64,000 nt of DNA from Paramacrobiotus metropolitanus. Lineage: Eukaryota > Tardigrada > Eutardigrada > Parachela > Macrobiotidae. Position 1 is the stretch's first letter. Every line of letters starts with the position of its first letter. The stretch spans positions 496,001 through 560,000 of the forward strand of contig NW_026570264.1 in assembly GCF_019649055.1 (NCBI RefSeq). The letters run 5' to 3'. A program made the position numbers and the translations under genes. The notes beneath the pieces are model-generated. The model saw only the letters and a list, made by a program, of their open reading frames with translations, made no database searches and had not been told where the DNA came from. Shown here one piece after another: positions 899 through 50,470 of this stretch.

Positions 899-2095
899 AT
901 AAACTTTTCCGTCAACTTCAGCGGAATTTGTAACGCCCCGGCGCATTTCCCATCGCTGTTCATTGCTTCCGTAACCGCGTGTGCGTCGAAATATCTGATT
1001 CTCTGCTACACCAGAGCCATCGCCAATTACGCTCTTTTAGCCGGTCTGATTTTTTTCGAACAATCAAACTCGCGACAGCGATCGGGATGCCGTTTATTAA
1101 TTGCTCATTATTTAGCCTCGCACACCGCACTTTGCGCCATATCATATCCAAATGGCAGTGTCAATTTACCGTAAACAAGCTGTCGCTGTTCAAACCAATC
1201 CCCGATTCTGCGGACCAATAATGGCTCTGCAACTGACCCTGCGGGACGCGGCCAACTGGATCGACACGTACATTGCTGTCAACCGTGTCGTGGCGCTCTG
1301 CTTTCAGTCCCATTATCGCCAGTTTTCAGCGCGGTATTTGGAAAAGTTTATACTCACGGTGTTATGGATCGCTGCTGTCTGCTTAGCTAGTCTTGGATGT
1401 TTTGATTTAGGAGTTAAGTATCCGGTAATACCGTCGCGCAGTTGTATTATCGTGCAGAAAGATGTGTTTGGGCTGTTGACCCTAATAACCGGCTGTTACT
1501 GCCCGTTAGCTGTGGCAGGCGCAGGATATGGTCTAATTTGTTTGAGACTATTTATTCGTCGAAAAAAGAGGAACACAGTAGTGGACAATATACCGCAAGA
1601 TGTGGATACAAACGCGGACCACCGGCGTGCAATGAAGACCAACATGGTGTTCTTGTCCTTTCTTTGGAATGTGGTAGGATATTTGCTGTTCCCTGTAACC
1701 TTGGCGGTTGCGCCGGATACACAGGTCCGTCGCCCTCTAGTGACGTTGTGGCTGGGCTCGGTGCAGATGTTCGGTTATGCCACCAACCCGGTAAGTATGT
1801 TTATACAAATTCGATCACCCTGGATATTCAAGGACTGTTGAAACCTGACTTTATAGTGCTTGCTCTTTCAATGTATAGTGTATACCCGATAATTAAGGCA
1901 CGAATTTTTTAGGTGATGTTTTTCGTCATGAGCTTTGAATACCGAGCGGAACTGGCGCGTCTGTGCCGTCGGGTCTGGGATGGAATGCTCGGACATTCAC
2001 GAGAGCCATCAACAAATGGACAACGGCCAGTGCGCTCAGGGAGCCTTTCGGCCTCTTTCACTACAGCGGGAAACAAATTGACACCGTTGAGTTAA
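899..2095 (+). pseudogene. Class A GPCR paralogue, disabled
   Basis: This is a copy of the seven-helix receptor family that fills the window. The paralogue start Met-Asn-Phe-Ser reads Ile-Asn-Phe-Ser here, because ATG has become ATA at 899. Near 1150, two bases are missing between the TM2-end codons for Ser-Tyr-Pro and the following Met-Ala-Val, which shifts the frame. Residues are also inserted around TM1 and the first loop. From 1152 the frame is open through TM3-TM7: C3.25, an NRV motif in place of DRY, P5.50 and the Asn-Pro of TM7. Exon 1 ends at 1790, a 122 bp intron follows (gtaagt...ttttttag), and exon 2 runs 1913-2095 and encodes MFFVMSFEYR and a 60-residue tail. Both splice sites are intact, so decay looks recent. 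An unknown upstream exon restoring the start is possible, but the two-base deletion would remain. Confidence 0.85.
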
Positions 2096-3546: not shown

Positions 3547-6299
3547 ATGAATTTATCCGCCAATATCAGCAGCATCTTCAATACGACGTTGCGCTTCCCT
3601 TTACTGTCCGCTTCTTCCGTGACCGCCTGGGCTGCAACGTACCTGACCCTCTGCTACAGCGGAGCTTTTGCCAACGTACTGTTATCCGGCCTGATATTTT
3701 CTAACTGGAGACTGCGGTCCGGGTGTGGTTTATTAATCGCACATTATTTAGCCTCGCACACCGTACTCTGTGGCGTTTCCTATCCTATTATAGCCGTTTT
3801 CGTGTACCGTAAACAAGTGACCGCTGTCCAAATCGACCCGCGATTCTGCGGACCAATCATGGCACTGCAGTTGACCATGCGGTACGCGGCCAACTGGATC
3901 GATACATACATCGCTGTCAACCGTGTTGTGGCGCTCTGTTATCCGTATCTTTACCGGCGCTTTTCCGCTCGGAATTTGGAAAAGTTTATTCTCACGATGT
4001 TATGGATCACTGCGGTGTGCTTAGCCACTCTCGGGTGTTGGGAACTAGGCATTAAATACCCGCTGTCACCGACGGGCAGTTGTACAATCGCACAAAAAGA
4101 TGTGTTCGGTTTGTTGACTTTTATTGCCGGGTACTATTGCCCGTTGGTCTTAGCGGGTGCGGGCTATGTTGTGATTTATGTAAGGCTAATAATTCGCCGC
4201 AGGAAAAAGAACACAGCGGTGGATAATGTGCTGAACGATGCCGAAACGACGGTAGAACACCGGCGTGCGGTGAAAGCTAACATGGTGTTCGTGTCGTTTC
4301 TGTGGAATTTAGTGGGATATCTAATTTTTCCGATAACTTTGGCGGTTGCGCCGGATGCACAGTTGCGTCGTCCACTGGCGACGTTGTGGCTGGGTTCGGT
4401 GCAGATGCTCGGTTACGTCACCAACCCGGTAAGCGTTCGCGTTTTGCTCTGGAAATGCTCCTGTTGTAAATTTGTGCAGGGTGCGGTCACAGAAAAATGG
4501 TTGAAACTGCCGTGAACCTTCAGCTGATTTTCTCGTAAGCTATGTCTAAGACTAAGAGAGACAGACATAAACGGCTGAAACTTGTCTTATTTACCATAAA
4601 TCAAATTTGTTTGATAACAAAACCGTTGCAAATGTTTTCTTATTCTTTTGAGATATCGGTTGGATGATTTCCTTTCGAAATGTGTGCACGGCGATAATGT
4701 CAGAGTTTAGCATACGTTTAGCTATGTAGAAAACTTCAATGGCGGTTTCAATCACTTTGTAGCGCGGGCTGTCATCCTAAGGCGGCCGGACGTGTTGCAT
4801 ATTCACGTTTACGGCTCGAGTCTTTAAGCTTCCCGGAGTGCATTGAGCCAACTTACCTGGGCACATTTTCCGGGTCTAAATTCAGAAATTCTGATCTTTT
4901 GTAGGAAGGTAGAGTACTGCCCCAGTTTGCTTGAAAAAATAGCTTCATCTGCAAAGGCTCAAGGGCATGGCCAAACAGAATTAGTTTAGTACGACGTACT
5001 TATTGTTTATAGGCGTACTGCTACAGCCCATTTGTGCAGTACTTCGCATGGGGCCTTAAGTTTTCCCCTCACACAGCACGGGAAATTTTGTTTTCCCCCG
5101 CACATGTGCCGCTTAGTCGCTTACACGCTTAAAGCTGACTGCAGTTTAAAGCCGCGTGCGCTGCGGCAACACGTTTGCCGTTATCCGAGCTGTCTCTGCT
5201 CTCTTGTTCAGTTGCGCAACCGGATATGCCGAGTTGGCCAGAAACCCGTTTTTAGCTGCAGCCAACTTCAAGTTGCATTCATGTAAGCGACTAAGCGGCA
5301 TATGTGCGGGGGAAAACGAAATTTCCCGTACTATATGAGGGGAAAACTTAAGGCCCCATGCGAAGTACAGTACTGTACCCTAACTCTGCACTTGAAGGAA
5401 ATTTGTACGCTATGAGCGATACGGTGCTGTATAGCCGGATTAACATTCAACTAATTCACGTTTATACACGCACTAGCTGCAAGCCGCGTTTGTGAATGGT
5501 GAATGGGCTCGTACAAGTGCGTGTGGCTGCACTGTACAAATTTCCTTCAAGTGCAGGGTTAGGGTACAGTACTCTTTCAGGCTTTTTCGGTAATAACTAA
5601 GTTTTGTGGGTATTGCATTGGTACATGATGGACCATACCAGTTTTTACTTTCAGGTACCGATGTCATTTACGCGCGCTTGCGATGACACTCCCACTGTTG
5701 CCAAATCATAGATTTTTAAAAATTCGTTATCGGCTGAACTGCGAGCGCATCCGTACAAGCATTCCTTGTTTACGATGTAGCTAATATCATAAATAATTTT
5801 GAGAAAGGGAACCGGTAATTTGGCTTGAACTGCATGGGCGAGACGCGTGCTGAAAGAGTCCCGATCTAGAACAGCACCCGTAAATCGAAACAAAACTAGA
5901 GAAAAGCCAGCATCGAACCAATGCAAAATACGGTAGTACATGTAGCATGCAATACTATGTAATCATTTAAGTATGGGTTGGCCACGCCGTTTGAGCCTTT
6001 GCAGATAAAATTATTTTTTAAGCATGCTAGGGTCGTATTCTATCCTTCTACAAAAAATCATAATTTTCTGAATTTAGACCCGGAAAATCCCTGGTTAGTG
6101 CATCCTCGCACATTTTATAAAGAAGGGATCTTTTTAGTTGATGTTTTTTGTCATGAGCGCGGAATATCGGCTGGAATCGGCACGTCTTTGCAGTCGGCTG
6201 CGGAAAGGAGTACGGAACCGTTCCCATGTGCCATCAGGCACTGGACAGCCGCCTATACGCTCGGGAAGCATTTCGCTATGTGAACAGGGCGGGAAATAA
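3547..6299 (+). CDS. Rhodopsin-class (class A) seven-helix receptor, intact, 347 aa
   Basis: This encodes a plasma-membrane GPCR; its ligand cannot be told. Exon 1 (3547-4428, 294 codons) covers an extracellular N-terminus with N-glycosylation sites and TM1 to mid-TM7. Exon 2 (6138-6299) gives MFFVMSAEYR and a basic tail ending GGK. Class A marks are the TM1 Asn in GAFAN, C3.25 in RFCGP paired with the loop-2 Cys in GSCTIAQ, R3.50 exactly 25 residues after C3.25, W4.50, P5.50 in YYCPL, and NPxxF in TM7. Asp/Tyr of DRY are replaced (NRV) and TM6 has no CWxP. An upstream in-frame ATG at 3460 exists, but all paralogues start at the Met-Asn used here. The 1709 bp intron is inflated by a 1.2 kb inverted-repeat element; paralogue introns are 109-146 bp. 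The closest copy in the window is at 34792-35951, which shares the short exon 2. Confidence 0.9.
5039..5369. mobile_element. Foldback/MITE-like element with ~87 bp inverted arms
   Basis: Arm 5039-5125 (starting GTACTTCGCATGGGGCCTTA) is nearly the exact reverse complement of arm 5282-5369 (ending GGCCCCATGCGAAGTAC). About 155 bp separates the arms and has no reading frame of note. It is nested inside the larger element of the receptor intron and abuts the next foldback element. Confidence 0.75.
5369..5573. mobile_element. 205 bp MITE-like foldback element, ~40 bp inverted repeats
   Basis: The left end AGTACTGTACCCTAACTCTG at 5369 and its reverse complement at the right end (5534-5573) match over about 40 bp with one mismatch seen. 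The internal region is non-coding. The sharp, symmetric ends suggest a small non-autonomous DNA element inserted at the edge of the neighbouring foldback. Confidence 0.75.
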
Positions 6300-26348: not shown

Positions 26349-27577
26349 TTAGACCTTCGACTCCTGATTAATAACGACGTCGGTACTAGTTGATGGCAGT
26401 GGCGCTAATTTTATTCCCGCCGCATGCACAGATAGCGAAAGGCTTCCCGAGCGTACCGGCCGCTGTCCATTACCTGATTGCGTTTGCCGACCCAACATTC
26501 CATTCCACAATCGGCGACATAGGCTCGCTAATTCCGATCGGTATTCCGAGCTCATGAGGAAAAACGTCACCTAAAAATTTGTGTAATAATTTATCGAATA
26601 CAAAGGTTCACTTCCAAATTTATTGTGTTGATAATATACAATTCCCTCCATAAATTTTGAACCTGAGGGCATGATCCGCTCTCTCAAGGTCTTACCGGGT
26701 TTGTAACGTAGCCAAACATCTGCACCGAGCCCAACCACCACGTTACCAACGGACGAAGGAACAGTGTACCCGGTGCAACTGCCAAACTAACCGGAAATAC
26801 CAGATACCCGACCAAATTCACCAGGAACGCAGCAAATACCATATTGGCCTTTCTCGTTCGCCGGTATTCGACCGCTGTTTCCGGTCCTTGACGCGAATCC
26901 TCCACCGCTGTGTCCTTCTTTCTTCGGCGAATTATAAATCTTATATAAATCATACCATAACCCACACCCGCCAACACCAGCGGACAGTAATAACCTGCTA
27001 CAAAGATCAGCAAACCAAACACATCTTTCTGCATGATGGCGCAGCCGCCTGAAGGTACCAGCGGATATTGGACGCCGAAACCCAGCCACCCAAGGCTTGC
27101 TAGGCACGCAACAGCGATCCATAACCCCGTAAGAATGAATTTCTCCAAATTCCGCGCGGAAAAACGCCGGTACTGATACGGGTAGCAGATCGCCACGACG
27201 CGGTTCACAGCGATATACGTATCGATCCAGTTGGCCGCGTACCGTAAGGTCATTTGCACTGCCATGCTTGGTCCGCAGAATTGGGGATCGATTTGGACAG
27301 CGGTCGCTACTTTACGGTACACGTTGATCGCAGTGATTGGATAAGAAACAGCGCATAGTGCACTGTGCGAGGCTAAATAATGAGCGATCAAGAGGCCACA
27401 TCCGGAGCGCAGTCGCCCGTTTGAAGAAATTAATCCGGCCAACAGCGCATTAATGATTGCGCCGCAGTAGCATAGTGGGAGATATGTTGCCGCCCAAACG
27501 GTTACGGAGGAAACTGACATCAGTGAAAATCGCGAGGTGGCATTCAAGGTACCCGTACCGTTGGCTGATGAATTCAT
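26349..27577 (-). CDS. Rhodopsin-class seven-helix receptor, intact, 367 aa
   Basis: Exon 1 (27577-26696, 294 codons) and exon 2 (26570-26349, 74 codons with stop) flank a 125 bp intron (gtaaga...ttttag). The Met-Asn-Ser-Ser start matches the paralogues; an upstream in-frame Met at 27610 is not conserved. Motifs: GAIIN in TM1, C3.25 in QFCGP, NRV in place of DRY followed by AICYPYQYRRF, loop-2 Cys in GGCAIMQ, P5.50 in YYCPL, RRRKK at the base of TM5, NPV-TFF in TM7. The tail has EYRSEL and a Ser/Arg-rich stretch that could be phosphorylated. It stands apart from the main array, between the DOMON gene and its pseudogene, and is about as divergent from the array members as the 32.6 kb copy. Confidence 0.88.
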
Positions 27578-32582: not shown

Positions 32583-33783
32583 TTACTTATTTTCCGCCGT
32601 GCTCACTGCCAATGAATGGCTTCCCGATCGTACCGGCCGTCGCCCATTCCATGATTGGTCTGTCGGACGACCCAACATTCCATTCCACAATCGACGGCCG
32701 AGATTTGCCAGTTCCGACCGGTATTCCGAGCTCATGAGGAAAAACATTACCTAGAATATTCATGTTTGAATTTATCGAGTATGCAAGTCGCCGACTTCAA
32801 ATTATTTTATATGTGTCGACAGTTCGTGGATGGCATGCATTTCCCTTGGAAAAACTTTGAGCATAATACGCATGCTCTGCTGTCTTGCAGTCTTACCGGA
32901 TTCGTGACGTAACCAAAGATCTGAACCGAGCCCAGCCACCACAACACCAGCGGATTATAGAGCACCGCTTCCGGTGCAACGACCGAACCTATCGGATATG
33001 CCAAATATCCCACCAAATTCAATAGAAACGAGGCAAACAGCATGTTGGCTTTTGAAGAATGGCGGTGTTCCATCGCTATTTCAGGGCCTCGAGGTAAATT
33101 CTCTACCGCTATGTTTCTCTTTATTCGGCGAATTAGAATTCTTAAATAAATTACACTATAATTCACAGCCGCCATCCCTGGCGGTAAATAGTACACGGCT
33201 ATAAAGATCAGCAAACCAAACACATCTTTCTGCACGATGGCGCAATTGCCCGACGGAATTAGAATGTATTTAACGCCGAAATCCAACCATCCAACACTCG
33301 CTAGACACGCCGCAGCGATCCATATCCCCGCGAGAATAAATTTCTCCGAATTCCGCGCGGAAAATCGTCGGTAATGGTATGGATAGTACAGCGCCAGGAC
33401 GCGATTGAAGGCGATGCACGTATCAATCCAGTTGGACGCGTACCGTAAGGTTAACTGCAGTGTCATAATTGGCTTGCAGAATCGAGGGTCCATTTGGACA
33501 GCGACCGTTTGCTTGCGGTAGACGTTGATGGCAATAATGGGATATGAAATAGCGCATAATACGGTGTCCGAGGCTAAATAATGGGCGATCAATAGGCCAC
33601 ATCCGGAGCGCAGTCGCCCGTTGAAGAAAATTAAGCCCACTAACAGTGCGTTAATGACTGCACCGACGTAACCTACCCTAGTGAGAGAAATGTTGCAGCC
33701 CAAATGGTTACTGACGAAATATTCACCAGTGCGAACTGCGGTGTACCATTAAAGATCCCAGTGATGTCGATTGATGAATTCAT
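32583..33783 (-). pseudogene. Rhodopsin-class receptor paralogue with a TM1 frameshift
   Basis: Exon 1 (33783-32897) is 887 bp, exactly 5 more than the 882 bp of its sisters. In TM1 the codons for Leu-Cys-Tyr are replaced by a stretch in which 8 bases stand where 3 are expected (CTAGGGTAGGTTAC), so the frame shifts by +2 and meets a stop. Before it, MNSSIDITG and on to TFLSL reads well. After it, all helices are open through TM7, including C3.25 (RFCKP), NRV, the loop-2 Cys and NPV. The intron (32896-32751) and exon 2 (32750-32583, MFFLMSSEYR, stop TAA) are intact. A single lesion means recent loss or a sequence error; if the base calls were wrong this would be an intact gene. The second loop and TM5 are the most divergent in the family (YYLPPGMAA). 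Confidence 0.7.
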
Positions 33784-34791: not shown

Positions 34792-35951
34792 TTATTTCCC
34801 GCCCTGTTCACAAAGCGAATGGCTTCCCGAGCGCATCGGCCGCTGTCCAGTGCCTGATGGCAATCGGGGACGGCCTCGCACTCCGTTCCATATCCGACTG
34901 CAAACACTCGCCAACTCCTGTCGGTATTCGGCGCTCATGACGAAAAACATCAACTAAAAACATGACCCTAATATAAAATCCATTCGTAATCAATAAATAA
35001 TGCTACGCTTCCCGTAGAAATTTCGGATATGATAATTTTCGGCATGAACTGTGAAGTGCGAACGCTTACCGGGTTGGTGAAGTAAACGACCATCTGTATC
35101 AAACCCAGCCACAATGTCGCCAGCGGATGTGTCCGCTGTGCATTCGGCGCAACCGCCAAGGTTACCGGAAATATCAAGTAACCCACTAAGTTCCATAGAA
35201 AGGACAGGAATACCATGTTGGCTTTTCCTGTGCGCCTGTGTTCCAGCGTTGTTTCGCCATTTTGCGAAACATTTTCCACCGCTGTGTTCTTTTTCCTTCG
35301 GCGCATTAACAGTCTCAAATAAATCACACCATAACCCGCACTAGCTAGTGCTAGTGGACAATAGTACCCGGCTACAAAGGTCAACAAACCGAACACATCT
35401 TTCTGGGCGATTGTGCAACTGCCAGACGGAAGCTGCAAGTATTTTACGCCTAAATCCCACCATCCGAGACTCGCTAAACACGCGGCAGCGATCCATAAAA
35501 CCGTGAGAATGAATTTTTCCAGATTCAGCGCGGAGAAACGTCGGTAAAGGTACGGATAGCAGAGTGCCACGACACGGTTGACGGCGATATATGTGTCGAT
35601 CCAGTTGGCGGCGTACCGCAAGGTCAACTGCAGTGCCATGATGGGTCCGCAGAATCGCGGATCAATTCGGACAACGGCCACTTGTTTACTGTACGCAAAC
35701 ACGGCAATAAGAGGATAGGAAATGGCGCACAGCGCGGTGTGCGTAGCTAAATAATGAGCTATTAATAAACCGCACCCCGAACGCAGTCGCAAGTTAGAGA
35801 AAATCAGGCTAGACAGTAGTGCGTTGGCAATAGCTCCGCCGTAGCACAGAGTGAGGTACGTTGCAGCCCAAGCGGTCACGGAAGAAGCAGACAGTAAGGT
35901 GAAATTGCTCGTTGTATTGGAAATGCCGCTTAGGTTGATGGATAAGCTCAT
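34792..35951 (-). CDS. Rhodopsin-class seven-helix receptor, intact, 347 aa
   Basis: Exon 1 (35951-35070, 294 codons) and exon 2 (34953-34792, 53 codons plus stop) flank a 116 bp intron (gtaagc...tttttag). It starts MSLSINLSGISN with two N-glycosylation sites. Class A marks: GAIAN in TM1, C3.25 in RFCGP, NRV for DRY, loop-2 Cys in GSCTIAQ, P5.50 in YYCPL and NPxxF across the splice. Exon 2 is short and ends CEQGGK, as in the plus-strand gene at 3547-6299. These two form a subgroup, although they lie 30 kb apart in opposite orientation, which implies a rearrangement or long-range copying. Confidence 0.9.
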
Positions 35952-39148: not shown

Positions 39149-40361
39149 TTAGAATTCGATTTCCTTGATAACACGGTCGGTTTTAGTTAACCACAAGGGT
39201 GCTAATTTATTTCCGGCAGTGTTGCCAGCGGTCGAAAGGCTTCCTGAGGGCATTGGTCGTTGTTCATTTGAAGATGGTTCTCGTGAACGTCCGAACATTC
39301 TGTTCCAGATCCGACGACACACAACCTTTAAATCCTCTCGGTATTCGGTGCTCATGATGAAAAACATCATCTAGAAAATTCGATCCAAGTTATATGTTTT
39401 AAAAAAAACCTAATGTGCCAGTTAGCAACACGTCTTATAAAAAAAACCGGTCTTATCGAAACTGCACGAACGTACTAACCGGATTGGTGACGTAACCGAA
39501 CATCTGCACCGAGCCCAGCCACAATGTTACCAGTGGACGACGAACCTGAGTGTCCGGCGCAACCGCCAAAGTAACCGGGAAAACCAGATATCCCACCACA
39601 TTCCACAGAAACGAAGCAAACACCATATTGGCTTTTACCGCACGGCGGTTTTCCATCGTGGAATCAGCATCATGCGGCACATTTTCCACCGCTGTGTTTT
39701 TCTTTCTTCGTCGGATCAGCAACCTCAAATAAATCACAGCATAACTTGCTCCTGCCACAGCTAAGGGGCAGTAATAACCGGTAATAAAGATCAGCAAACC
39801 AAATACATCTTTGTGCACGATGCTACACCCTCCCGACGGAACTAGCGGATATTTAACGCCTAATTCGAGCCAACCTAGACTGGCTAGACACACAGCAGCG
39901 ATCCATAACATTGTGAGAATAACCTTTTCCAAATTTCGCGCGGAAAACCGCCGATAATGGTACGGAAAACAGAGCGCCACGACACGGTTGATGGCGATAT
40001 ACGTGTCGATCCAGTTGGCCGCGTACCGTAAGGTCAGTTGCAGTGTCATTTGTGGTCCGCAAAATCTTTGGTCGAGATTTAAAGCGTTCGCTTGTTTGCG
40101 AAAAGTGGACACGGCCAGTATTGGATAGGAGATGGCGCAGAGCGCTGCGTGCGAGGTTAAATAATGAGCGATTAATAAACCGCATCCCGATCGGAGTCGC
40201 CAGTTCGAAAAAATCAGACCGGCTAACAAAGCGTTGGCGATGGCTCCGGTGTAGCAGAGAGTCAGATATGTCGACGCCCACGCGGTTACGGAAGTAATGG
40301 AAAGAAATGCAAAATGCGACGTTGCATTGACTGCCCCGCTGATGTTGACGGAAAAGTTCAT
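39149..40361 (-). CDS. Rhodopsin-class seven-helix receptor, intact, 367 aa
   Basis: Exon 1 (40361-39480, 294 codons) and exon 2 (39370-39149) flank a 109 bp intron (gttagt...ttctag), the shortest in the family. It starts MNFSVNISGAVNATSHF, with N-glycosylation sites before TM1. C3.25 (RFCGP), NRV for DRY, W4.50, loop-2 Cys (GGCSIVH), P5.50 (YYCPL), KANMVF at the base of TM6 and NPxxF in TM7 are all present. The 73-residue exon 2 product has a Ser-rich tail. A family-conserved block lies about 570 bp upstream. The dead copy at 899-2095 is its nearest relative at the N-terminus. Confidence 0.9.
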
Positions 40362-43327: not shown

Positions 43328-44558
43328 TCAGTTAAGCTTTATACCACGGTCAGTGCTTGCTGACCACAATGGAGCTGATCTATTCCCCGTCGTGTTCACA
43401 GACCGCGAACGGCTTCCCGACCGCATCCGCCGTTGTCCGTTGTTGGATGGCTCACTAGAGCGACCCAGCATGGCATTCATCACTCGGCTGGTGAGACGCC
43501 CCAGTTCCGATCGGTATTCGACGCCCATGAGGAAAAACATTACCTAAATTCATTCGTCTTCTAATAACTGAATTCTTCTTAAATACATCAACGCTATTAA
43601 AACGCTCGTATCATCAACGATTTGACGGAGAGCATTCCAGTTAACCTGATGTAAAATAAATATGCTGGCTTACCGGGTTGGTGACGTATCCGAACATCTG
43701 CACTGAACCCAGCCATAACGTCACAAGTGGACGCCGAAGCTGGGTATCCGGCGCAATCGCCAAGGTCACCGGAAAAACCAAATAGCCCACCGTATTCCAC
43801 AAAAATGACACAAAAACCATGTTGGCTTTCACCGCACGTCGGTGTTCCACCGTTCTTTCTATATCTTGCGGTGCGTAATCCACTGCCGTATTTTTCTTCC
43901 TTCGGCGAATTGCCAATCTCAGATAAATAACACCATAACCCATAGCCGCCAAAACCAGCGGACAATAATACCCGGCGACAAAGGTTAAAAGCCCAAAAAC
44001 ATCTTTTTGTACGATGCTGCAATTACCCAGGGGTATTAGCAGATATTTAACGCCCAAATCCAACCATCCTAAGCTTGCTAAACAAGCAGCAGCAATCCAC
44101 AACACCGTGAGAATAAAAGTCTCCATATTTCGAGCGGAAAATCGCCGATAACAGTACGGATAACAGAGCGCCACGACACGGTTGACAGCGATGTATGTAT
44201 CGATCCAGTTGGACGCGTAGCGCAAGGTCAACTGCACCGTCATGAACAGTCCACAGAATCGTGAGTCGACTTGGATACCGGTCGCTTGTTTACGGTACAC
44301 GGACACCGCGACGATCGGATAGGAAACAGCACAGAGTGCGGCGTGGGCCGCTAAATAATGGGCGATTAATAGTCCGCATCCTGCTCGCAGTCGCCAGTGA
44401 GAAAAAATCAGGCCGGCTAACAGCGCGTTGACGATGGCACCGGTGTAGCATAGAGGAAGGTGTATGGACGCCCAAGCAGTTATAGAAGAAGTCGACATTA
44501 AGGAGAAACGCGGTGTCGCATTGCCGATGATCCCGCTGATATTAGCCGATACATTCAT
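43328..44558 (-). CDS. Rhodopsin-class seven-helix receptor, intact, 366 aa
   Basis: Exon 1 (44558-43674, 295 codons) and exon 2 (43543-43328, 71 codons plus stop) flank a 130 bp intron (gtaagc...tttag). The start MNVSANISGIIGNATPRF is used because it matches the family; an in-frame ATG lies 13 codons upstream. All family marks are present: GAIVN in TM1, C3.25 (RFCGL), NRV, loop-2 Cys (GNCSIVQ), P5.50 (YYCPL), a basic TM5 end (RRRKK), the NTVGYLVFP version of TM6, and NPVMFF with MGVEYR in exon 2. The tail is Arg/Ser-rich. Confidence 0.9.
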
Positions 44559-46670: not shown

Positions 46671-48656
46671 TCAACAATTCTTACTACCACGGTCAGTACT
46701 AGCTGACCACAACGGCGCTAATTTATTTCCCGCAGTGTTTGCGGAGAGGGAAATGCTTTCGGAGCGCAGCGTTCGCTGTCCGGTGCCTGTTGGCTCGCGT
46801 GAACCTCCCCGTATACCTTTCCAGACTCGACGGCACAGACGCGTCAGTTCCGCCCGGTATTCGATGCTCATGGCGAAGAACATCACCTAAAAAAATTGTG
46901 TCTGATAATTACTGAATTTTCTTTCGAACACGTATGTAAAAGGTCACCAGTCCTAGCTTCACGGAAGGCTATTACAAACTAAAAAACAAAATTAACTACC
47001 ACCAGTACTCTGTAGAGGTCCAAATATGCCTGACCAGGGCACATTTTTCGGGTCTAAATTCAAAAAATTCTGATAATTTGCAAAAAGTTATAATACTACT
47101 ACCCTAGTTCAATTAAAAAATTAATTTCATCTGCAAAGGCTCAAAGGGCGTGGCTAACCATCAATTAAATGTCAACGTAGTTTATATACTGTTTACTGCT
47201 ATTTAGAGCACTGGTGCTGCGCAGTCTCATTGTGATAGCTTCGTTTTGATTTTGCGAGCGCCGCACTAGTTGTGGACCCTTTCAGTACGCCCCCCCCCCA
47301 TGTCATCCCAGCCAAATTAATATTTGTCAGGAATTTTATAAAGTATTAATTAAACCGTAGACAAGAAGTGCCGGCATAACAGGCTGTATTAATGTGCTTT
47401 CAAATTAATAACCGATAGCAGATTTTGGAAATTTAAAATGCGCATCAGCGGTGAAACGGCCACCGCATGCGTATATGGGTTAAACATCAGGACTTGACAA
47501 CTGGATCCAATAATTTGCTCGTGCAATACGGTAAAATTTAATCAACAAAAAATATAGGCTGAAGAGTACTAAGTACTGCACCAATACATTGCAACAGTAC
47601 GGTACGTAGTGCTGTATGTTCATTTAATATTGTTTGGCCACGCCATTTGAGCCTCTGCAGATAAAATTATTTTTTTAATTATACTTGGGTATTATTCTAC
47701 CTGTCTACAAAATATCAGAATATTTTGAATTCAGACCCGGAAAATGTGCCCTGGTGAGTTTGGTATAATAAAAACATATGGCTCACCGGGTTGGTGACGT
47801 AACCAAACATCTGCACCGAACCCAACCACAACGCCACCAGTGGACGACGCATCTGTGTATCCGGTGCAACCGCCAAGGTTACCGGAAATATCAAATACCC
47901 GACCACATTCCACAGAAACGACGCAAACACCATGTTGGCTTTCACCACACGCCGATTTTCCATCGTTGAATCCACATCTTGCGGCAGATTTTCCACGGCT
48001 GTGATTTTCTTTCTTCGACGAATTATTAGTCTTAAATAGATAATGCCATAACGTCCAGCCGCTACCGCTAATGGTAAATAGTACCCGACTACAAAGGTCA
48101 TCAACCCAAACACATCTTTTTGTGCGATAGTACAACTTCCCGTCGGTATTAGCGGATACCTAACGCCTAAATCCCACCAGCCTAAAACAGCCAAACATAC
48201 CGCTCCGATCCATAACACCGTTAGAACGAACATCTCCCAATTCCGCGCGGAAAACCGGCGATAATGGTACGGAAAACACAGCGCCACGACACGACTGACG
48301 GCGATGTACGTGTCGATCCAGTTGGCCGCGTACCGCAGGGTCAGCTGTAGTGTCATGATCGGTCCGCAGAATCGTTGGTCCATTTGGACAGCGGTAAATG
48401 GACATTTTGCTGTCCGCTCGATCCATTACCGCTTGGGCGTCGACATACCTTACCCTATGCTACAGCGGTGCTATTGGTAAAGCGCTTTTAGCCGGTCTGA
48501 TATTTTCCAACTGGCGCCTGCGCTCGGGATGCGGTTTACTAATCGCTCATTATCTAGCTTCACACACCGCACTCTGCGCGATTTCTTATCCAACCATGGC
48601 AGTGCAAAATGCGGCGTCGTGTTGAAGATCCCGCTGATATTAACCGACGAATTCAT
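46671..48656 (-). pseudogene. Rhodopsin-class receptor paralogue broken by an internal inversion
   Basis: The pieces are: the start MNSSVNISGIFNTTPHFA on the minus strand (48656-~48607); TM1-TM2 on the plus strand (about 48401-48606, reading LLSARSITAWASTYLTLCYS onward to ISYPTMAV); and loop 1/TM3 to TM7 on the minus strand again (about 48395-47787). A 900 bp intron holding an inverted-repeat element follows, and then exon 2 (46886-46671, MFFAMSIEYR). So about 205 bp has flipped in place. At the left breakpoint about 11 bases, including the Lys-Gln codons after TYR, are missing, which shifts the frame. Short inverted motifs (GCACTGC / GCAGTG) sit at the two breakpoints. The remaining TM3-TM7 frame is open, so the event is young. 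Confidence 0.85.
47033..47755. mobile_element. Second copy of the intronic inverted-repeat element, 723 bp
   Basis: The left end ACCAGGGCACATTTTTCGGG (47033) and the right end (reverse complement ACCAGGGCACATTTTCCGGG, ending 47755) frame the element. Inner blocks CTGCAAAGGCTCAA and the CGTGGC motif match the 4855-6095 copy. The internal DNA near the left arm is also similar; the two nested foldbacks are absent. It lies near the donor side of the intron, whereas the other copy lies near the acceptor side, which suggests separate insertions. A C-run of ten lies at 47290-47299. Confidence 0.75.
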
Positions 48657-50470
48657 TGTTCTCGTTCGAGATAAAGATAAGATACGATTAACAAACTACC
48701 TGATGCAGAAAGCACATTAATTAAGAATTAAGCCGCATTTTTGCTGAGTATGTGAACTCGTAAAAAATTACGGGAGATGGGGCAGCAGTAACGTGATACA
48801 TTTCAAAATATTTTGCCATTAATGCCAAGCAGCCAGACAAACACTGGATTAGTACCTAACTTCAACTTAAGTAACTAATCCAGTGGTGAACTTGAGGAAC
48901 AGGGAAACGGTTTTAAGAAGCGTTTGGTAGCAGCGACGAATTAAATTCCTAATTTGGTGGCTTGGGTACTTAAACGCGATGAGATTCACTGGGTCCGTCA
49001 AATGCCAGCGCCTCGGGTCAGGAAATTAAAATATTAAAGTAATAGAGTAGACCTCCGAGTAATAATTATGCCCAATTTAAGTCCGTTTAAGTACACCATA
49101 AACCGGTAGAGTCCCACGTGCCAGATATTTTGTGCGGTTATGAGTTATGACATTTGGCATTAAATAAATTTTTCACGTTCGACAATTCATCGAGAACTAT
49201 TACCTCATTAAAAGGCACATTTTTCATTATCGAAGAAAACAATATTGCGTGTGATCGAAGAAAACAATATTTCAACGGGGTCCTTTATGAAGACTGCGTC
49301 GTTCAGAAATTTACAACGATTTACTTAGTGCGTAGTAGTAGTGCGTACGATGTTTATCATTCTCGGTCAAAGTGATGTTTACGCATCATATTACCATTTA
49401 ATGCAGTTATATATTTTTGCTTTCAAAATAAAAGCAGTGATACAAAAATGGCCGAACAGATGTAATTAAAGTTTCCAGTTACGCACGTGCATCTGTACTC
49501 GCCAGTGTTATTCTTTTAATACTCGAAATCCTGTCGTCATAAATCACAATTCATACTGCTCCTGACTCCCTGCCACTCCGAACAAATTCTACTCAGCTCC
49601 GTTTGCCCAAACATTCTTACTGTCAGTGTCCTTTGCTATTATCGGCGGAGAAACCTGCAGAATGAAGGCATTCATTTCCGAGGCGCAAACAGGTGTATAA
49701 AAGGGTCACAAAATATTTTCTGGAAATACTATGATAGCTATTACTTTATTGTACAGTAGCCTATAGCAGATTACGTAAATATCACCGCTCGGGCGTCACA
49801 AAACGTTTTGCGACGGTGCCGTATTTTACCACGGAAAGTGTGCATGCGGCTGGCGGTTCCTTCACTGTATGAACCGCTAAACCGCTGCGCTCGACGCGAT
49901 TTACAATGTGTCGTGTACAGACTCTGTATTATGCCGGCTGCACGTGATTTCGGCACACTTGTTCTCGTACTACAATAAAAGTACTCGTATTATACGTATG
50001 CCTAAAATTTGTGTGCAAGCATAAAGCAGTAGGCTTCGCATGATACAGTTAATTTTCCATCAGACATGTGAATAAAATTATTTTTGAAGTATCCTTCCAA
50101 GTTCCAACACATGCGGGAAAGCTTAATGAATATAGTGAAGGAGTCTGCCGGTTGTTAAGACTTTCAACTGAATCGTCTAAAAGTTTCTCTGTTTGTTGTA
50201 AATTTAGCTCCGCAAAGCATCCATAAAAGGTTTCGTTCAGGCTTTACCATAATTATCATAACCACGCGCCTAAATCGTGCAGCTCAGATTATCGTTTAAT
50301 AAAAAAATGTGCCAGCACAATTTTACAACAACCGTAGCGCCAATCAAGGCCCAACGACCACTATCATCCTGTATAAAACAGTTCACTTGGGATTTTTTTA
50401 AATACATTTCCAAATGTTTCTTCGCATCCGGGAATAGACATATTGCTCTATCAGTTTATTACGCAAGGGG
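48657..50470. other. Receptor 5' flank and spacer
   Basis: The conserved upstream block is near 48985-49030, and 49.37-49.95 kb aligns with the 41.3-41.8 kb flank. A direct repeat GATCGAAGAAAACAATAT occurs near 49217-49272. No gene is seen. Confidence 0.4.

Follow-up and report, generated by a model that had tools for sequence, protein, structure and literature searches.

A probable young in-place inversion of about 196 bases in a tandem rhodopsin-class receptor gene of Paramacrobiotus metropolitanus

Introduction

How does a receptor gene come to have its start codon and TM3-TM7 on one strand, and the TM1-TM2 part between them on the other? A preliminary description of the DNA analysed here (64,000 nucleotides of contig NW_026570264.1, here also C44, positions 496001-560000, referred to below as the window) took such an arrangement at one locus for a micro-inversion, with the TM1-TM2 segment turned round in place. 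We compared this locus with its paralogs, in the window and in the whole assembly (169.8 Mb, 533 contigs), and arrived at the same reading: we put at about 85% the probability that the locus carries a real, young and inactivating in-place inversion.

Results

A receptor cluster and its rearranged member

The window, with a GC content of 42.7%, contains eight tandem copies of a rhodopsin-class receptor, named A to H:

Paralog A, first exon about 899-1796, plus strand
Paralog B, first exon about 3547-4434, plus strand
Paralog C, first exon about 26693-27577, minus strand
Paralog D, first exon about 32894-33676, minus strand, start further up
Paralog E, first exon about 35064-35951, minus strand
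Paralog F, first exon about 39474-40361, minus strand
Paralog G, first exon about 43668-44558, minus strand
Locus H, first exon 47787-48656, minus strand, with exon 2 at 46671-46886

F and H were tested against Pfam, and both F (50.4 bits) and the TM3-TM7 part of H (41.9 bits) passed the cut-off of 30.5 for PF00001 (7tm_1); a Pfam search with the flipped piece of H alone (65 amino acids) gave no match. Genome-wide, two different queries returned at least 132 family matches (546 candidates) and at least 135 (590 candidates). This large receptor family lies partly in tandem clusters, on contigs C44, C10, C37, C63, C83 and others. A search of phage records gave no match, as expected.

The features of locus H are as follows:

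48605-48656, minus strand: start codon and N-terminal part in the original orientation (MNSSVNISGIFNTTPHF), aligned with seven paralogs
48409-48604, plus strand: flipped segment, open in this orientation, coding for the last part of the N-terminus and for TM1 and TM2
47787-48395, minus strand: rest of exon 1 with TM3-TM7, open, ending in a splice donor identified by eye
46671-46886, minus strand: exon 2, C-terminal tail, open up to the stop codon, acceptor read by eye
48599-48604, plus strand: right junction, GCAGTG (CACTGC on the minus strand), a 6-base microhomology that paralog spacing suggests is shared by both joined sides
48403-48410, plus strand: left junction, CATTTTGC, inverted copy of 48604-48611, a possible templated scar
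48391-48395, minus strand: site of a deletion of about 14 bases adjoining the left junction, at an ACCGC motif, deletion read by eye
47030-47760, no strand assigned: dispersed element bounded by long terminal inverted repeats; it sits in the intron of H, outside the inversion

The intron element is about 730 bases long, of which each terminal inverted repeat takes up about 130-140. It has at least 123 genome-wide matches (the best 40 of 196 candidates being listed), and the closest near-full copy among those listed is 84% identical. We rejected it as the cause of the inversion: its ends lie more than 600 bases from the nearer junction, and there is no common border.

TM1-TM2 of locus H is reversed at its original place

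When positions 48250-48720 were used as the query of a DNA search, the TM3 side and TM1-TM2 of six of the seven paralogs matched H on opposite strands, each of the six aligning with query positions 1 to 131-146 (TM3 side) and a second time within 157-355 (TM1-TM2). Paralog D gave only the TM3-side match in this search; pairwise blastn added an opposite-strand alignment of 92 bases (78%) between its TM1-TM2 and H. When the window was compared with itself (122 HSPs; pieces of at least 60 bases, close on both sides), the whole TM3-TM7 of H lay on the expected strand relative to the same six paralogs, and all 12 opposite-strand neighbour pairs returned involve H, these being the six paralogs counted both ways, with D absent.

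With 80% identity and E = 6.5e-31 the flipped piece aligns with family residues 18-86, in reverse orientation to the remainder of H, and the plus strand reads ...ARSITAWASTYLTLCYSGAIGKALLAGLIFSNWRLRSGCGLLIAHYLASHTALCAISYPTMAV, which is family TM1-TM2. A plus-strand frame of 75 codons (48398-48625) runs over TM1-TM2, with an in-frame ATG at the left junction. The start-codon part, the flipped segment and TM3-TM7 are each open, as first described. The strand-switch signal is far beyond chance, and H shows what defines a microinversion, a segment reversed at its original place between flanks that keep their order. The claim of an in-place event is borne out by the strand switch against six of seven paralogs, with D contributing pairwise only, and by a tree position accepted for both parts (see below). 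The length of the flipped part, previously given as about 205 bases, is smaller, its core comprising about 196 bases (48409-48604).

The genome matches listed for the 48250-48720 query include neither a haplotig nor another copy of H. In tables read by eye, the best 132 of 546 and 135 of 590 family matches showed no further pair of adjoining matches on opposite strands.

The two junctions differ

Both current junctions can be read in the assembly. On the minus strand the right one is CATTTTGCACTGCCATGG; paralog spacing suggests that the N-terminal side once continued with a second CTG codon before TCCGCT; CACTGC would thus be common to both sides. Inverted motifs had been reported at both breakpoints. 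A site does exist at the right junction, but GCACTGC and GCAGTG are that one site (48599-48605) read on its two strands, and GCACTGC/GCAGTGC is now found at the right junction only. The putative ancestral left partner of the 6-base repeat is reconstructed from the codon spacing of paralogs that are some 20% diverged.

The left junction is not a plain exchange at an inverted repeat: a few bases have been replaced and about 2 gained. The sequence CATTTTGC at 48403-48410 has its reverse complement at 48604-48611, and a local match of this kind would arise with 2 of the 64 possible three-base fillers, one of them the filler observed; a templated scar is weakly suggested. Judged by eye from the codon spacing of the paralogs, the left side has lost about 14 bases, which together with the extra ones makes a net change of -12, and the aligner's own gap total for H at this junction is -12 as well. 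The loss at one breakpoint noted before is therefore real but amounts to about 14 bases instead of 11, and with a small replacement and a nearby deletion at the left junction calling the record of the event 'clean' goes too far.

Template switching and end joining as possible origins

The inversion most likely originated by microhomology-mediated template switching or by break repair at the 6-base inverted repeat. Provided that it is real, young, inactivating and in place, we consider template switching the likelier source, at somewhat better than even odds, and infer it instead of two-break repair. A germline accident would have put the reverse complement in place of the roughly 190 bases that separate CACTGC from GCAGTG. 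The 3' end would have switched template at the 6-base motif and the opposite strand would then have been copied through TM2-TM1, which would put TM1-TM2 on the other strand; the switch back would have left the small scar at the left junction and the 14-base deletion nearby (microhomology-mediated template switching, or MMBIR). As the flipped core of about 196 bases exceeds the DNA persistence length (145 base pairs, as cited in PMC8755829), looping would be less of an obstacle here than in the ape cases discussed below.

The repeat itself marks the site but is not rare, since such 6-base inverted pairs are common: each of five genes has 15-31 of them at a spacing of 150-250 bases. Its position at a junction is less expected: for inversions of 150-250 bases placed at random in the five intact paralogs, a microhomology of at least 6 bases has a probability of 0.0016. 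Two double-strand breaks followed by end joining with the piece turned round would have to meet this figure, and microhomology-mediated joining would be needed. End joining usually leaves small losses, filler and deletions close by, all of which H has at or near its left junction; the inverted 8-base copy at both junctions also fits staggered ends. Two-break joining leaves scars similar to those of template switching, and we regard it as a possible, though clearly less probable, origin of a real inversion.

The arrangement is very unlikely to be an artefact

We take Paramacrobiotus sp. TYO to be the P. metropolitanus of later papers. The assembly analysed here, with its 533 contigs, is likely the one published for TYO (170,483,395 bases, 684 scaffolds, GC 43.46%; PMC8277472). 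Two primers for ParTYO_TPS-TPP-2 given in that paper have gene-specific parts that each hit the assembly once, on C84, 3.7 kb from each other and pointing inwards; the reversed control had no hit. According to that paper, it was made with Canu, nanopolish and Pilon from DNA of about 3000 animals, at a mean coverage of 45x nanopore and 62x Illumina reads, and amplification has one mention in the main text, for cDNA.

If the true gene were intact and the flip a chimera of assembly or library, the near absence of decay outside the junctions, as in an intact gene, would be accounted for. Chimeras of multiple displacement amplification are, as described in PMC1855051, mostly inverted joins at short complementarity; they join two segments, and 85% are inverted. 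To produce H, an artefact would have to make two specifically scarred junctions and return to the original place, not just one two-segment join, and the substitutions N125S and N43K (see below), the latter at a nearly invariant position, suggest some real loss of constraint. With polished nanopore and Illumina data of this depth behind the published TYO genome, we consider an artefact very unlikely.

A broken frame with little decay

The minus-strand frame from the start codon of H, MNSSVNISGIFNTTPHFALPW..., ends after 61 codons with a stop at codon 62, and the family match of H holds 3 stops. As the frame ends there, we infer that H has lost its function as a receptor. It is a pseudogene, the third of eight copies. 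Paralog A became a pseudogene in a different way: its start codon is changed and a 2-base gap follows TM2, and its TM1-TM2 also carries in-frame insertions of 3 and 9 bases. In paralog D, TM1 is interrupted by 5 inserted bases and exon 2 by a stop.

Selection was assessed with a two-ratio codon model written for this analysis (286 codons, eight genes). The background had an omega of 0.206, H one of 0.243, and pseudogenes A and D together one of 0.497, the value for H differing from that of A and D (p = 0.014) and not from the background (p = 0.52). A second topology gave 0.208, 0.212 and 0.448, respectively, with p = 0.010 against A and D and p = 0.93 against the background. In the omega profile of H, 2dlnL is 2.32 at 0.35 and 4.30 at 0.40, which places the upper limit at about 0.39 by interpolation; the neutral share of the H branch (dS 0.31) is at most about a quarter, or about 0.07 per site. 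None of the 286 codons of H is a stop; at 0.088 changes per site 3 stops would be expected, giving a neutral limit of about 0.09. Relaxed selection on H was not detected by this model, omega not being significantly above background, and we read the absence of a rise as youth. The young age proposed in the preliminary description is supported by both results: no stop, and an omega of 0.24 against 0.21 in intact relatives.

Individual positions show the same scarcity of changes. Over TM3-TM7 columns invariant in the other seven copies, private changes number 3/80 in H, 2/79 to 5/82 in intact copies, 13/90 in A and 16/93 in D; in the flipped part the counts are 1/28 for H, 4/31 for A, 2/29 for D and 1/28 to 2/29 for intact copies. 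The flipped-part counts, the 34 family-invariant columns (1 change in H, 6 in A, 0 in D) and the nearly invariant ones (2/18 in H, N43K and Y87C; 1/19 in A; 3/19 in D) do not separate broken from intact copies. Y87C lies inside the deletion scar and is probably misaligned. H also has S at N125, which is invariant in 19 aligned relatives. N125 is presumably the residue before the TM3 arginine of class A receptors, and N43, where H has K, their TM1 asparagine. N125S and N43K may be the first signs of decay in H. Omega of TM3-TM7 taken gene by gene was ordinary in A (0.246) despite its broken frame, and 0.86 in D; the value for F (0.145) was below the rest at p = 0.047, uncorrected for eight tests.

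TM3-TM7 and exon 2 of H are open, TM3-TM7 still looks constrained, and an in-frame ATG stands directly before TM3, from which a five-helix protein could in principle be made, so that H would still be functional. Such a product would be without TM1-TM2, and the absence of decay is expected from youth alone; continued function is in our view even less probable than an artefact. The inversion might still be segregating in living Paramacrobiotus as flipped and unflipped receptor alleles, which we think unlikely. If it were, one could examine the junctions that a coding microinversion leaves with the ancestral state still at hand.

The flipped piece looks like the gene's own TM1-TM2

Codon-aligned identity of H with the seven paralogs is 0.67-0.77 in the flipped part and 0.73-0.80 in TM3-TM7. 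Ten placements of H were tested on trees of each part. Both the flipped and the unflipped part accept a separate lineage for H, placed between A+F and the remaining copies (AU p = 0.46 and 0.70, respectively). For the flipped part the AU test rejects at 5% a sister relationship with A (0.042), F (0.042), E (0.021), C (0.004) or D (0.004), and accepts B (0.069), G (0.66) and the groups B+E and C+D as sisters. The SH test rejects no placement of the flipped part at 5%, C and D being at 0.051; pairing H with G fits the flipped data better by 0.15 lnL units, and the placement of H is weakly supported in both trees (bootstrap 48 and 50). The two parts are therefore alike in identity and in tree placement, as expected of the gene's own segment; the flipped part being short, tree placement is support and not proof. 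A stronger point is that a young event should leave a close donor, and there is none among the listed matches. To judge from these comparisons, the flipped piece looks like H's own TM1-TM2.

The least probable of the readings weighed here is that no inversion took place and that H lost its own TM1-TM2 by deletion and received another paralog's copy backwards: the genome has many paralogs to supply one, AU leaves G and B as sisters and SH rejects no single paralog, but AU rejects the five others, the best paralog reaches only 0.774 over the codon-aligned flipped part (the local match to F being 81%), and the lack of a closer copy among the genome matches listed counts weakly against it.

Discussion

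In the human-chimpanzee comparison of PMC8755829, 59 microinversions of 17-33 bases are described, all flanked by inverted repeats of 3-75 bases; the authors argue for MMBIR, with template switching possible where perfect repeats are longer. H resembles these as a short in-place reversal and, if the left arm is reconstructed correctly, by a 6-base inverted repeat at its borders; it differs in its length of about 196 bases, its position in a coding exon (none of the cases reported there lies in coding sequence) and its one scarred junction. Short-range template-switch mutations of great apes follow, in PMC7954356, a four-point model in which two switches yield a reversed piece. Like the products of that model, H carries a reversed piece, and it has small changes nearby; the great-ape cases are mutation clusters between close species, whereas the ancestor of H is reconstructed from paralogs. 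Our literature search found no account of locus H and no paper on Paramacrobiotus metropolitanus with an inversion.

The cluster in which H lies, tandem rhodopsin-class receptors of which some are broken, is of a familiar kind. Birth-and-death receptor clusters with pseudogenes consist of tandem rhodopsin-class receptors, some of them broken. Two neighbours of H became pseudogenes through start loss, small indels or a stop, and H did so through an inversion.

H illustrates a known mutation type well without being new in kind, and the case alters no general idea. It shows legibly how a gene was lost when about 196 bases within one exon were turned round, a change that annotation might easily overlook or enter as a short piece of a receptor, and it offers a test locus for the origin of short inversions in an animal that survives drying.
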